In this document: positions 21,783 to 63,578 of the stretch, piece by piece
Layout of the letters: each line of letters opens with the position of its first letter
Numbering within the stretch: position 1 is the stretch's first letter
Assembly (NCBI RefSeq): GCF_000526675.1
Contig: NZ_JAGN01000002.1
Coordinates: 1-64,000 of the forward strand
Length of the DNA stretch: 64,000 nucleotides
Direction of reading: 5' to 3'
DNA from: Atopobacter phocae ATCC BAA-285
Lineage (GTDB): Bacteria > Bacillota > Bacilli > Lactobacillales > Aerococcaceae
Made by a program: the position numbers and the translations under genes
The notes under the pieces: model-generated
Seen by the model: only the letters and a program-made list of their open reading frames with translations
The model's database searches: none
Told to the model about the DNA's origin: nothing

Positions 21783-21811
21783 TTGACGTCTTTCTATGGG
21801 TATGATATACT
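21783..21811 (+). promoter_or_regulatory. Promoter of the MerB-like gene
   Basis: TTGACG (21783-21788), a 17-nt spacer and TATACT (21806-21811), about 60 nt before the ATG at 21873. No dyad resembling a MerR operator (long -10/-35 spacer of 19-20 nt) is visible. Confidence 0.65.
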
Positions 21812-21872
21812 TCATTCAAATCGTTACCATGTCGATTTAGTTTTATATCATTTCACCTTTAGGAGGAGTATT

Positions 21873-22484
21873 ATGTCTATTACACCAAGCCATTCGCTAC
21901 TTCAATCGCTTCATTCCATTGAATCAAAACTTTCACCAGAAGAAATTCAATGGCGTAATCAAATGATTGATGCCTTATTATCCGACGAATTATTAGAATA
22001 TGCTAAAAAACATCCCAGTCGAGTATCTGCTCTACAAAAGAAAGATGTCTTGCAATTAAATTCTAATGAAGAGATTATGACGTTCTATCCATTTTCGTTA
22101 CAACCTACTCCACATCACGTGACGATTTTATCCACTGGTCAAACATTTTATGCGATGTGTGCGATTGATTCCATTGGTATTGCTTATATGTTACAAACAG
22201 CTATTTCTATTACGAGCCAATGTCATCAAACCGGTGAGCAGGTCACGCTTCATGTGACGCCGGAATCAATTACGAGTGAACCAAACAATGTGCACGCTCT
22301 GTATGTTGACTTAAGTCAGTCTGATACGTGGTCTACTTGTTGCTGTTGCCAAATGCATTTTTATAAGGATCCAGAAGCATTTCGTGCATTTGTCGCTCAA
22401 CAGGGTGCCCCGAACTTGCCCTACGAATTACTCGATTTAAACGATTCAGCTCGTTATGCTCAAAAACTATTTGAACGTCAATAA
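21873..22484 (+). CDS. MerB-like organomercurial lyase family protein
   Basis: A 203-aa cytoplasmic protein similar in layout to alkylmercury lyase MerB, which cleaves the carbon-mercury bond. After an N-terminal helical region comes the MerB core: FYAMCAIDSIG matches the LYAWCALDTL segment of MerB carrying catalytic Cys96 and Asp99; SQCHQTGEQVTLHVTP matches its CAATGAPVSLTVSP; and CCCCQMHFYKDPEAF matches CCHVHFFAS with catalytic Cys159. All three catalytic residues are therefore present. The N-terminal winged-helix part is divergent. AGGAGG precedes the ATG at 21873; the in-frame ATG at 21783 lies in the promoter. No merA, merR or mercury transporter is adjacent, so a role in mercury resistance is uncertain and another thiol or metal chemistry is possible. 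Confidence 0.82.
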   Translation: MSITPSHSLLQSLHSIESKLSPEEIQWRNQMIDALLSDELLEYAKKHPSRVSALQKKDVLQLNSNEEIMTFYPFSLQPTPHHVTILSTGQTFYAMCAIDSIGIAYMLQTAISITSQCHQTGEQVTLHVTPESITSEPNNVHALYVDLSQSDTWSTCCCCQMHFYKDPEAFRAFVAQQGAPNLPYELLDLNDSARYAQKLFERQ

Positions 22485-22930: not shown

Positions 22931-23710
22931 TTATTTCGAATGTTTTTCTTTCACGTCATACGATGCGAGCAATTCGTAAAGTGACGTCGTCGTTAACTGG
23001 GCTTTTTCTTCTGCTGATAAATCCCGAACGATTTCTCCTTGATGCATAACGATTAAACGATTGCCATATTCAATCGCATCGGACAACTGATGTGTGATCA
23101 TTAAAGCCGTCAAGTGATCGGTTGTAATTTTTTCTTGCGTTAGTTCCATCATCATGCGTTGTGTTTTGGGATCTAAAGCCGCCGTGTGTTCATCGAGTAA
23201 TAATAGTTTTGGTGCTCGAATAGTCGCCATCAATAACGCGATTGCTTGCCGTTGTCCCCCCGATAAGACGCCCATCTCACTGTTTAAACGATGCTCTAAT
23301 CCTAAATTCATTGCTTGCAGTTGTTGATAAAATTGTTCGATTTCTTGTGACGTTTTACCTCTTTTTAATCCTCGACGACAACCGCGTCGTTGGGCTAAAG
23401 ATAAATTTTCCGCAACGGTCATTCGTGGGGCCGTACCTTGTAATGGATTTTGGTACACTCGGCTAATCGTTTGTGCTCGTTTACTTTCGCTTTGATGACT
23501 AATATCTTTTCCTTCTATAAGAATAGCACCAGCATCTAAAGGAAAGCTTCCCGCAATGGCATTGAGAAAGGTCGATTTTCCTGCGCCATTTCCGCCAACA
23601 ATGGTAATGAAGTCCCCTGGGGTAATTGTCAAACTGACTTGACGCAATGCATGGTGTGCTCGATTCGTTTGTGGATTAAAGGTTTTATCGATAGCTTGTA
23701 TTTGAATCAT
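22931..23710 (-). CDS. trpZ: TrpXYZ-type ABC transporter, ATP-binding protein
   Basis: The ATPase subunit (259 aa) of a probable tryptophan importer. It shows Walker A GGNGAGKST, Q-loop region SRVYQNPLQGT, signature LSGGQRQAIAL, Walker B LLLLDEHTAALDP and switch His MITHQLSDAIEYG. Its ATG overlaps the TGA of the permease gene (ATGA). It is the last gene of a three-gene unit. The DEHTAALDP Walker B and the association with a family PF04392-like binding protein match the streptococcal TrpXYZ arrangement. The substrate assignment leans on the Trp leader upstream of the operon and is inference. Confidence 0.85.
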   Translation of the reverse strand: MIQIQAIDKTFNPQTNRAHHALRQVSLTITPGDFITIVGGNGAGKSTFLNAIAGSFPLDAGAILIEGKDISHQSESKRAQTISRVYQNPLQGTAPRMTVAENLSLAQRRGCRRGLKRGKTSQEIEQFYQQLQAMNLGLEHRLNSEMGVLSGGQRQAIALLMATIRAPKLLLLDEHTAALDPKTQRMMMELTQEKITTDHLTALMITHQLSDAIEYGNRLIVMHQGEIVRDLSAEEKAQLTTTSLYELLASYDVKEKHSK

Positions 23711-24603
23711 ATCGTTCGCCCTCCTATCGGTAACACGCGTTGAAATAATCGTCTAAATTGTGGTAGCGTTAAGCATAAAGCGATTAAGAGCGCTGTAAAT
23801 AATTTGAAATCATTTGCATCAATGATTTTTAATTGTAAGACGCCCATTACAAAGAGTCGGTAAATAATCGATCCTAATACAATACAAATCAGTCTTAAAA
23901 TAAAGGTGACTTGACCAAAGAACACTTCTCCAATAATGATTGCAGCTAACGCAATGACAATCGTGCCTACTCCACTATTAATATCAGCAAATCCGTTATG
24001 TTGCGATAGAATACCTCCTGCTAGAGCAATAATACTATTAGATAGCATCAATCCTAAAATAATCATTCGATTCGTTGAAATACCTAAAGAGGTTGCCATC
24101 GTTGGATTATCACCTGTCGCAATAATAGCTTGACCGATTTCAGTTAAAAAAAAGCCATACATTAAGTCAATCAAGAGGATGACAAAACCTCCTCCTATTA
24201 AAATTAGGTCATAATATAGCGGTAAGTTAAATCCGCTGAATGCTTTAAAAATGGTTGATTCATTTAACAAACTTAGATTAGGTCGTTGCATCACTTTCAA
24301 GTTGATGGAGAGTAGACCGGTCATCGTTAAAATTCCCGCTAACAAGCTCGGTATTCGACAGACCGTAATCATCACCCCGGTCACTAACCCAGCTAGTGCC
24401 CCTGCTATCATTGCTAATAACGTTGCTAATAATGGATGAACGCCTTGATGAATAAGCATCACGCAGGTCGCTGCGCCTAATGGATACGAACCTTCTGTTG
24501 TCATATCCGCCACATTTAATATGCGAAAACTAATGAACAACCCTAATGATAAAATGCTCCACAAAATACCTTGAGCAATTGCTGAAACGAATAATTCCAT
24601 CAT
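23707..24603 (-). CDS. trpY: TrpXYZ-type ABC transporter, permease
   Basis: The membrane subunit (298 aa) of the same importer, of the branched-chain-type/ribose-type permease superfamily, with about eight to nine hydrophobic helices and the early motif SLGLFISFRILNVADMTTEGSY-like segment typical of the family paired with PF04392 binding proteins. GGGAGG precedes two adjacent ATG codons (24603 and 24600); either may be used. It lies 12 nt after the binding-protein gene and overlaps the ATPase gene by 4 nt. Confidence 0.87.
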   Translation of the reverse strand: MMELFVSAIAQGILWSILSLGLFISFRILNVADMTTEGSYPLGAATCVMLIHQGVHPLLATLLAMIAGALAGLVTGVMITVCRIPSLLAGILTMTGLLSINLKVMQRPNLSLLNESTIFKAFSGFNLPLYYDLILIGGGFVILLIDLMYGFFLTEIGQAIIATGDNPTMATSLGISTNRMIILGLMLSNSIIALAGGILSQHNGFADINSGVGTIVIALAAIIIGEVFFGQVTFILRLICIVLGSIIYRLFVMGVLQLKIIDANDFKLFTALLIALCLTLPQFRRLFQRVLPIGGRTI

Positions 24604-24615
24604 GTTCCCTCCCTT

Positions 24616-25638
24616 TTACTTTGATTGTGTTACATTCACATCGATTACTTGTTTCTGATTCGTTGACGGTAATTGAATATTGAATTGAGTCGCTTTATTT
24701 TTGTTTATGTAAATAATTCCTTCATTCGCTAATACTAGTGGTATATGAGTTGGACGTTTTCCTTTTAATACCTCCACCACTACTTGACTCGTTTGATAAC
24801 CGATTTGATATTGATCGACCCCAATCGCTAACACGCCACCATCTGCTACCATTGTATCGGATGAGGGGAAAACTGGAACGTTGTATTGATCGGTTATCGG
24901 TATAACAATATTCATTGCACTCGCAATCGTATTATCGATGGGAATGTAAATCGCGTCTACTTGGCGGGCTAAATGTTCAGTCACCGGTTGAATATCATTT
25001 GAATGATTCACCGTTGCTTCAATAGCAGTCCATCCCATGGCTTCTATTATTTCTTTTGCTTCACTTGCTTGTTTCGTCGCGTTATCTTCACTAGTCGTAT
25101 ATAAAATGCCTACTGTATTCAATGAGGGTAAAACGTCTTTCATTAAAATAAGCTGATCTTTAATGGGTGTTCGATCACTCACACCGGTCACATTATTTTC
25201 TGAAGCGACCTCACTTTTCATCAATCCCGCTTCAACGGGATATGTAATGCCTCCCATCACAATCGGAATAGTGCTCGTACTATTTGCCAACGATAACGTT
25301 GCGGGTGTCGTAATGCCAACGATGACATCATTCGCGTCTTGCACCAATTGTGTACTCATCATATTCAAATGACCTTGATCACCTTGGGCATTTTTTAAAT
25401 CCAATGTCATGTTCTCTCCATCTACATACCCACTCGCTTCTAATCCATCAACTAATCCTTCATAAATTCGATCTAATGCGGGATGACTAAGTAATTGCAA
25501 CACGCCTATTTTATAATGGGATTGCTCTTGGGTCAGGTTAACTGCTTGATTGCGATTAGGCATGTTAAAAAATCCATAAATTAAAATGAGCAGGATAACA
25601 GTGACACAGCCATATATTCGTGTAGTATTTTGTTTCAT
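24616..25638 (-). CDS. trpX: TrpXYZ-type ABC transporter, substrate-binding protein
   Basis: The extracytoplasmic binding protein (340 aa) of the PF04392-like family to which streptococcal TrpX belongs. An N-terminal hydrophobic helix (about 8-25) lacks a lipobox Cys, so it is probably membrane-tethered by an uncleaved anchor. Two Rossmann-like lobes follow (IGVLQLLSHPALDRIYEGL; VGILYTTSEDNATKQ; FPSSDTMVADGGVLAIGVD). A strong TTGGAGG site precedes the ATG. The gene is first of the operon and follows a leader peptide containing Trp and a terminator/antiterminator array, which is the main evidence for tryptophan rather than another substrate. Confidence 0.85.
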   Translation of the reverse strand: MKQNTTRIYGCVTVILLILIYGFFNMPNRNQAVNLTQEQSHYKIGVLQLLSHPALDRIYEGLVDGLEASGYVDGENMTLDLKNAQGDQGHLNMMSTQLVQDANDVIVGITTPATLSLANSTSTIPIVMGGITYPVEAGLMKSEVASENNVTGVSDRTPIKDQLILMKDVLPSLNTVGILYTTSEDNATKQASEAKEIIEAMGWTAIEATVNHSNDIQPVTEHLARQVDAIYIPIDNTIASAMNIVIPITDQYNVPVFPSSDTMVADGGVLAIGVDQYQIGYQTSQVVVEVLKGKRPTHIPLVLANEGIIYINKNKATQFNIQLPSTNQKQVIDVNVTQSK

Positions 25639-25678
25639 TCGTTTCCTCCAATATCCCTTGATTTACTTTTAAAACAAC

Positions 25679-25799
25679 AAAAAACCACGTAGACATTTAC
25701 TCTACGCGGTCATGTTAATCCTTGTTGTCGCCCACATAGATACTCGTTCATCTGAAATGAAGGTTGTATCCATGTAGAATAAACATGCACAGACAACCT
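25679..25799 (-). promoter_or_regulatory. Probable ribosome-mediated attenuator of the trpXYZ operon
   Basis: Five RNA segments can pair in alternative ways (minus-strand coordinates). Segment 1 (25799-25783) pairs with segment 2 (25775-25761): AGGTTGT/ACAACCT and CATGT/ACATG. Segment 2 (CTACATGGATAC, 25777-25766) also pairs over 12 bp with segment 3 (GTATCTATGTGG, 25743-25732). Segment 3 can instead pair over 9 bp with segment 4 (CCGCGTAGA, 25709-25701). Segment 4 pairs with segment 5 (TCTACGTGG, 25693-25685) to give an intrinsic terminator followed by T6. A ribosome at the leader stop codon would cover segment 1 and favour 2:3 plus the terminator; stalling at the Trp codon would free segment 1 and favour 1:2 plus 3:4 read-through. 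The pairings are read directly; the mechanism is inference. Confidence 0.8.
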
Positions 25800-25803
25800 G
25801 TAT

Positions 25804-25857
25804 CTAGTCGACTTGCCAATTTTTATTTAGTGGATGGGTCATTCGATTCAAGTGCAT
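25804..25857 (-). CDS. Trp-containing leader peptide
   Basis: A 17-codon open frame, MHLNRMTHPLNKNWQVD, with AGGAG 8 nt before its ATG and a promoter 35-60 nt upstream. The single Trp codon (25818-25816) lies four codons before the UAG stop (25806-25804), which is only 4 nt from RNA segment 1 of the attenuator. Placement is what a Trp-sensing ribosome would need. A single Trp codon is fewer than in the enterobacterial trp leader. Confidence 0.75.
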   Translation of the reverse strand: MHLNRMTHPLNKNWQVD

Positions 25858-46032: not shown

Positions 46033-46050
46033 GTAAAATACGTTCGCTCA

Positions 46051-46138
46051 TTGTATTCTCCCTACGTTGGCATTATCCAAATCAGGTTAGCGGTCTAAGG
46101 TCACACCTTACTCTCAGCCTGTTTACAAGCTCCCGTAT
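46051..46138 (-). ncRNA. TPP riboswitch (THI element)
   Basis: The conserved thi-box elements are present in order on the minus strand: GGGAGC..., CTGAGAGT, ACCTGATTTGGATAATGCC and AACGTAGGGA. It controls the thiM-thiE-HAD-thiD-methyltransferase-tenA operon, repressing it when TPP is high. Confidence 0.96.
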
Positions 46139-46153
46139 CTTTTAATTGTCTTC

Positions 46154-63275: not shown

Positions 63276-63578
63276 AAAAAAAGTCCTTTCACTAGTTATC
63301 TAGTAAAAGGACGAATATATTTTCGTGGTACCACCTTTATTCGGAAGCGAACTTCCCTCAGCCCAACGTCATGAACTAATTAGTCGTGAGATTGGTTTCT
63401 CTTTTAACGGTGAGAGCTTCCGAAGTTACCTACTTATCGACAACTTATCCTAAAAGGCCATTTTCAACTCGTCTGAACTTAGCGTTTTCCACCTAACAAC
63501 GCCTCTCTATTAAGCATTCGAGCTTACTTTCCTTCTCAGTCAGATTTACTTATTAATTTAATGTTTTGATTAAGGTTA
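63276..63578 (-). ncRNA. Methionine T-box riboswitch with terminator
   Basis: The T-box core AAAGGTGGTACCACG (63338-63324) is followed by an intrinsic terminator (GTCCTTTTACTAG/CTAGTGAAAGGAC, 63312-63283, then T7). Stem I region contains AGTA-type and specifier-like sequences, with GAAAATGGCC placing an ATG Met codon at about 63461-63459. UGGU fits the A discriminator of tRNA-Met. Uncharged tRNA-Met should induce metNIQ. The 5' boundary follows the promoter and is approximate. Confidence 0.88.

Follow-up and report, generated by a model that had tools for sequence, protein, structure and literature searches.

The RNA ahead of the tryptophan transporter genes trpXYZ in Atopobacter phocae ATCC BAA-285 is very probably a ribosome-mediated transcription attenuator that responds to tryptophan and controls this operon, the evidence on its function being comparative or computed. 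It lies on the minus strand of the window, by which we mean the whole stretch of 64,000 nucleotides analysed (contig NZ_JAGN01000002.1, positions 1 to 64,000). Features by which an attenuator is recognized were found: a predicted short leader ORF has regulatory codons that specify the operon's amino acid; the terminator and antiterminator helices exclude one another and have been preserved by compensatory changes (at E 0.05 only in 1:2 and 4:5); and, by computation over 112 loci and 34 Tyr/Phe loci, the fold is set by a ribosome at the regulatory codon. This reading offers a specific and testable explanation for the orphan riboswitch candidate RF04312, and leader-peptide attenuation would then be widespread in an order whose genes of this kind are better known for T-box control.

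Leader gene and RNA segments ahead of trpXYZ

A promoter-like site, a Shine-Dalgarno sequence, a leader ORF, alternative helices and a terminator all lie directly ahead of trpXYZ on the minus strand of the window (Table 1). The 17-codon leader with its ATG and a single Trp codon four codons before the stop had been proposed in a preliminary description of this DNA, and we recovered it as described; its stop was also said to lie only a few bases from segment 1, which in the window copy starts 4 nt past it, at 25799. The five nested segments of that description were found as well, but the total is six, as the segment at the 3′ end of the leader gene (segment 0) had been overlooked. The RF04312 match listed in Table 1 is likewise absent from it. 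The TrpX call of the window gene lies barely above its NCBIfam cut-off.

Table 1. Features of the trpXYZ locus in the window
Feature	Position	Strand	Remark
Sigma-70-type promoter-like site, TTGACT-N16-TATAAT	25916-25889	-	consensus match alone
Shine-Dalgarno AAGGAGAG	25871-25864	-	
Predicted leader peptide gene MHLNRMTHPLNKNWQVD*	25857-25804	-	17 codons, ATG at 25857, TAG 25806-25804
Regulatory TGG of leader	25818-25816	-	Trp four codons before stop
Segment 0, leader gene 3′ end and stop region	25799..25818 (limits approximate)	-	pairs with segment 3
Segment 1, AGGUUGU	25793..25799	-	partner is ACAACCU of segment 2; outside Rfam model
Segment 2, 5′ arm of Rfam hairpin P1	25761..25776	-	
Segment 3 GUAUCUAUGUGG, 3′ arm of P1	25743-25732	-	hub, partners 0, 2 or 4
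Segment 4 CCGCGUAGA	25709-25701	-	terminator hairpin arm
Segment 5 UCUACGUGG	25693-25685	-	terminator hairpin arm, then UUUUUU
Rfam RF04312 match (trpB ncRNA motif)	25673-25776	-	62.3 bits, gathering score 59
trpX, tryptophan ABC transporter substrate-binding protein	24616..25638	-	NCBIfam NF041285 390.7 bits, cut-off 390; Pfam ABC_sub_bind
Permease, trpY position	23707..24603	-	Pfam BPD_transp_2
ABC ATPase, trpZ position	22931..23710	-	Pfam ABC_tran

On folding, the region is more stable than 200 of 200 dinucleotide shuffles (z -3.75), and the duplex energies in the window copy are -15.1 (0:3), -13.3 (1:2), -14.2 (2:3), -13.6 (3:4) and -17.3 kcal/mol (4:5). We infer tryptophan starvation as the signal, together with the following order of events during transcription and their effect on expression. 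With the leader free of ribosomes, either segment 2 or segment 0 would occupy segment 3, the latter while enclosing 1:2, upon which 4:5 would form and transcription would stop; the 0:3 pairing would help to keep the switch off when the ribosome is absent. When Trp-tRNA is scarce, the ribosome would wait with the Trp codon in its A site, covering segment 0 but not segment 1, so that 1:2 would form, segment 3 would be left free to form 3:4, the terminator would be blocked and trpXYZ would be transcribed. With ample Trp-tRNA, the ribosome would get as far as the stop codon and cover both 0 and 1, and 2:3 followed by 4:5 would form and transcription would stop. Folding predicts a six-segment circuit that is OFF unless the ribosome is at one place.

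The E. coli trpL attenuator has four segments, and there a stalled ribosome sits over segment 1, which allows 2:3 to form as the antiterminator. Like it, the present type of element has Trp codons in a predicted leader peptide, helices that exclude one another and an intrinsic terminator, and by folding across the family it would be ON with the ribosome waiting at Trp. It differs in its six segments, in that 1:2 would be left intact and 3:4 would be the antiterminator, and in that a segment of the leader gene joins the pairing. We rejected an E. coli-type four-segment arrangement for the element, as the U run follows 4:5 and the antiterminator is 3:4 in folding. The label "classical-type" used in the preliminary description therefore holds for the class, ribosome-mediated attenuation, but not for the circuit.

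Leaders, pairings and codon position among relatives

The DNA was read around 160 RF04312 loci in Lactobacillales. It may be noted that the loci are related, so that the counts are of non-independent events, and that the sets are defined by the Rfam model and our scripts. A short ORF ends near the start of the motif in 158 of the 160 loci, of which 154 have Trp and 4 have FYFSYF; the ends seen most are WQSWRR, WQNWRR and WQSH. One locus lacking a leader (L151) was rejected as a true element, being apparently an unrelated palindrome, and at another near a contig edge (L142) there is a TGGCAAAGCTGG stretch without an accepted start. Eighty trpX loci were also chosen by TrpX protein homology, which avoids RNA-based selection; relatives were obtained by an alignment search, a single-protein query having given none, and a Trp leader was counted where the leader end pairs with downstream RNA better than -8 kcal/mol. 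The leader search upstream of trpX homologues proposed in the preliminary description thus gave a Trp leader at 78 of the 80 loci, against 1 in the opposite-strand control. An additional leader with a GTG start (L252) comes beyond these, that of a Mobiluncus locus (L275) is doubtful, and there is none at L261. A first, narrow regular expression had matched the element in 43 of the 80, and in nine upstream regions that we read there are Trp leaders where the P1 arm or the leader itself has diverged. In 20 trpX loci scanned with Rfam, which were picked among those missed by the narrow script, plus L247, RF04312 is detected in only 1, while 18 of the 19 others have an upstream Trp ORF (L275 doubtful). 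At L247, from a Coriobacteriia MAG, a TrpX relative is preceded by the leader MKVYKNGWWQAYIV and an element of similar form; the contig is labelled actinobacterial, and the element may be there by transfer or contamination.

For the pairings, a MAFFT alignment of 112 representative loci was used. The helices are paired in 95% (1:2 outer), 95% (2:3), 88% (3:4), 95% (4:5) and 78% (0:3) of the loci, every one of the five above shuffled and slid-register controls; the comparison therefore backs the 1:2, 2:3, 3:4 and 4:5 pairings first proposed from the window alone. In the 4:5 helix double changes occur at 9 of 10 pairs, and a 1:2 pair (columns 34-68), seen in A-U, G-C and C-G forms, ranks second among all column pairs. 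A covariation test, also suggested beforehand, was run with a tree-based null of low power, and this check was borne out in part: three pairs pass at E 0.05, of which one lies in the outer part of 1:2, one in its inner part and one in 4:5, while 0:3 and 3:4 have no such pair. For each of 0:3, 1:2, 2:3, 3:4 and 4:5, cognate duplexes are stronger than unrelated non-cognate ones (p about 5e-12 or less), the 0:3 duplex over the 112 loci having -14.7 kcal/mol for cognate, -11.4 for unrelated non-cognate and -5.9 for shuffled segments. The controls 0:4 and 1:4 gave no cognate advantage over unrelated loci in the same set, and 0:5 a weaker cognate effect, which is expected because segment 5 resembles segment 3. 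Two codons past Trp, most leaders have AGC or AAC, in agreement with the facing base past segment 3 (p 0.0004, relatedness uncorrected), an agreement by which part of the conservation of the leader peptide may be RNA pairing. The preliminary description had staked its reading on the conservation of the Trp codon and of compensatory pairs in relatives, and both are conserved.

In 96 of 108 loci the first Trp codon precedes the invariant base of segment 1 by 20-21 nt (sd 0.76), whereas the stop codon wanders from 13 nt after to 9 nt before this base (sd 5.1). Therefore, the Trp codon appears to be registered on the RNA switch and not on the peptide end and, its position being fixed, leader codons could help to predict transporter substrates. 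On the sequences compared, we take the predicted leader, the position of its codon and the pairings as established. Ribosome placement was modelled by folding the transcript to segment 4 with all bases up to 12 nt past the first base of the A-site codon removed. The probability of 3:4 exceeds 0.5 in 7% of the 112 loci without a ribosome and in 90% when the first Trp codon occupies the A site; for the two codons that follow the figures are 92% and 83%, for the third 56%, and with the ribosome at the stop about 5%. With footprints of 10 to 16 nt, between 75 and 92% of the loci are ON at Trp, and with 8 nt 60% are. Such ribosome-constrained folding had been put forward as a check, and its outcome is divided, as the family is ON at Trp but the window copy has a P(3:4) of 0.07 with the ribosome at that codon, its equilibrium fold favouring 2:3. 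It is one of eight among the 112 loci with P(3:4) below 0.4 at Trp. The best fold (2:3) and the best 3:4-enforced fold of this borderline copy differ by 0.8 kcal/mol, and the co-transcriptional order could decide between them.

Leaders with a single Trp near the stop, of which the window's is one, would also suit a TnaC-like arrest, in which free Trp and the nascent peptide stall the ribosome at the leader stop, covering segment 1 and enforcing termination; the fold is indeed OFF when the ribosome is placed at the stop, and a QLN tripeptide with synonymous Leu codons recurs in many leaders. We give this a slight chance, since the Trp-to-stop distance ranges from 3 to 11 codons in RF04312 leaders while Trp-to-segment-1 is nearly fixed, 94 of the 155 non-redundant leaders have two Trp codons, and the Tyr/Phe leaders described below have the RNA design without Trp residues. 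The recurrence of this tripeptide with synonymous Leu codons hints at a role for the peptide itself; the RNA pairings leave it unexplained. A QLN/ELN-like tripeptide stands ~3-5 codons before the first regulatory codon in leaders of both RF04312 and RF02863.

A probable Tyr/Phe sister family

A degenerate pattern for FYFSYF leaders was scanned in 395 genomes of the order, with the reversed pattern as control, and occurs in 78 of them against few reversed-pattern matches. One match (L168) was rejected as a leader, being inside an unrelated reading frame. Downstream of these loci we mostly read a TrpX paralogue or a shikimate dehydrogenase-like gene (aroE), both named by sequence reading. Seven loci were compared with Rfam, and 6 of them score around or above the cut-off of RF02863 (Enterococcus sRNA_2410); at E 0.001, 158 of 295 genomes contain RF02863 itself. 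Its leaders have Tyr/Phe codons at the places of the RF04312 Trp codons. The two families have the hub GUAUCUAUG in common and are similar in their 0:3, 1:2 and 3:4 pairings and leader geometry; RF02863 differs by Tyr/Phe in place of Trp, by the TrpX paralogue or aroE downstream and by a further hairpin beyond 4:5. When 34 Tyr/Phe representatives were folded with a placed ribosome, the share with P(3:4) above 0.5 was 85% for the first Tyr/Phe place and 74% for the second Tyr, but 6% for the sixth codon and likewise 6% with the ribosome left out, which is the same ON window as in the Trp type. RF02863 is filed as an sRNA, and these findings suggest that it is a sister attenuator. In E. faecium sRNA_2410 has been reported as a 195-nt RNA with two transcripts on Northern blots; we infer that the 195-nt RNA is the terminated leader. 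With modest confidence, we favour uniting RF04312 and RF02863 in one codon-programmable attenuator superfamily of Lactobacillales, in which the codon would keep a constant spacing from the switch helix downstream, a swap from Trp to Tyr/Phe having altered specificity as the transporter genes diverged. The hairpin past 4:5 is seen in RF02863 loci L162-L211 (for example L208), with a U run in several of them, and the chain may thus hold more segments than in the Trp type.

RF04312 as published, other sensors and neighbouring features

RF04312, the trpB ncRNA motif (SRC-39-1), was published in 2024 as a strong riboswitch candidate and is an orphan; in the source paper (PMC11109978), it is reported from Firmicutes and Fusobacteria, mostly before an uncharacterised ABC transporter homologous to amino acid transporters but also before trpB. 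By the Rfam cut-off, the window RNA from segment 2 to the terminator is RF04312, with the same gene links. Because the Rfam model begins at segment 2, it covers neither the leader gene nor segments 0 and 1, and the pairings 0:3 and 1:2 are absent from it; a term search of the paper gave no mention of a leader peptide for RF04312. In the literature searched, mostly open papers, so that an earlier report is possible, we found no experiment or expression data on the element, and the string FYFSYF nowhere. RF04312 is present in 57 of 100 genomes of relatives and 210 of 395 genomes of Lactobacillales, but in only 4 of 348 genomes of the phylum, including two weak matches outside the order (L212, L213), neither with a Trp leader. 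A TrpX relative follows 143 of the 155 non-redundant elements and trpB follows 6. Three RF04312-type elements with Trp leaders (L034, L061, L065) instead precede lipoproteins resembling peptide-binding proteins and not TrpX, the leaders of L061 and L065 having WW. At L071 the first long ORF past the element resembles, by its sequence, a group II intron reverse transcriptase.

The published candidacy, with an antiterminator region proposed within P1 (PMC11109978), is what speaks for RF04312 as a metabolite-binding riboswitch with an incidental leader ORF. We hold this to be very unlikely, because the Trp leader is nearly universal, the regulatory codon is at a fixed distance from the switch helix and switches to Tyr/Phe where the downstream gene changes, and much of the P1 conservation is explained by the 3′ arm of P1 having segments 0, 2 and 4 as partners; the discoverers themselves left a classic attenuator possible. 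That a Trp T-box controls the window trpXYZ, like the experimentally tested one at trpX of Streptococcus suis (PMC9382623), has virtually no probability, since Rfam at its gathering score gives no T-box leader (RF00230) upstream of the window trpX and its sole T-box in the window is at 63304-63550, a pattern search found no T-box core upstream of 80 of 80 trpX loci, and the 20 of these scanned with Rfam had none.

Attenuation by a leader peptide being the preferred reading, the S. suis trpXYZ T-box, which brings about transcription attenuation following Trp-tRNA charging (PMC9382623), serves a transporter operon of the same kind. Uncharged tRNA is bound directly by the S. suis RNA, whereas at the window element a translating ribosome would read the codon. 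Two different Trp sensors would therefore serve trpX in one order. The leader-peptide attenuator (His leader) of hisS paralogues in bacilli likewise has a codon-sensing leader peptide in the stead of a T-box (PMC2965389), for another amino acid and other genes, and is likened here by description and not by RNA sequence. The T-box leader of the window (minus strand) stands ahead of genes for an ATPase, a permease and a lipoprotein resembling metNIQ, so this genome uses a T-box elsewhere. Rfam also places a TPP riboswitch at 46042-46146 (minus strand), and a MerB-like protein is encoded at 21783-22484 (plus strand), with a Pfam MerB match and scores below the NCBIfam cut-offs for SaoL and MerB.
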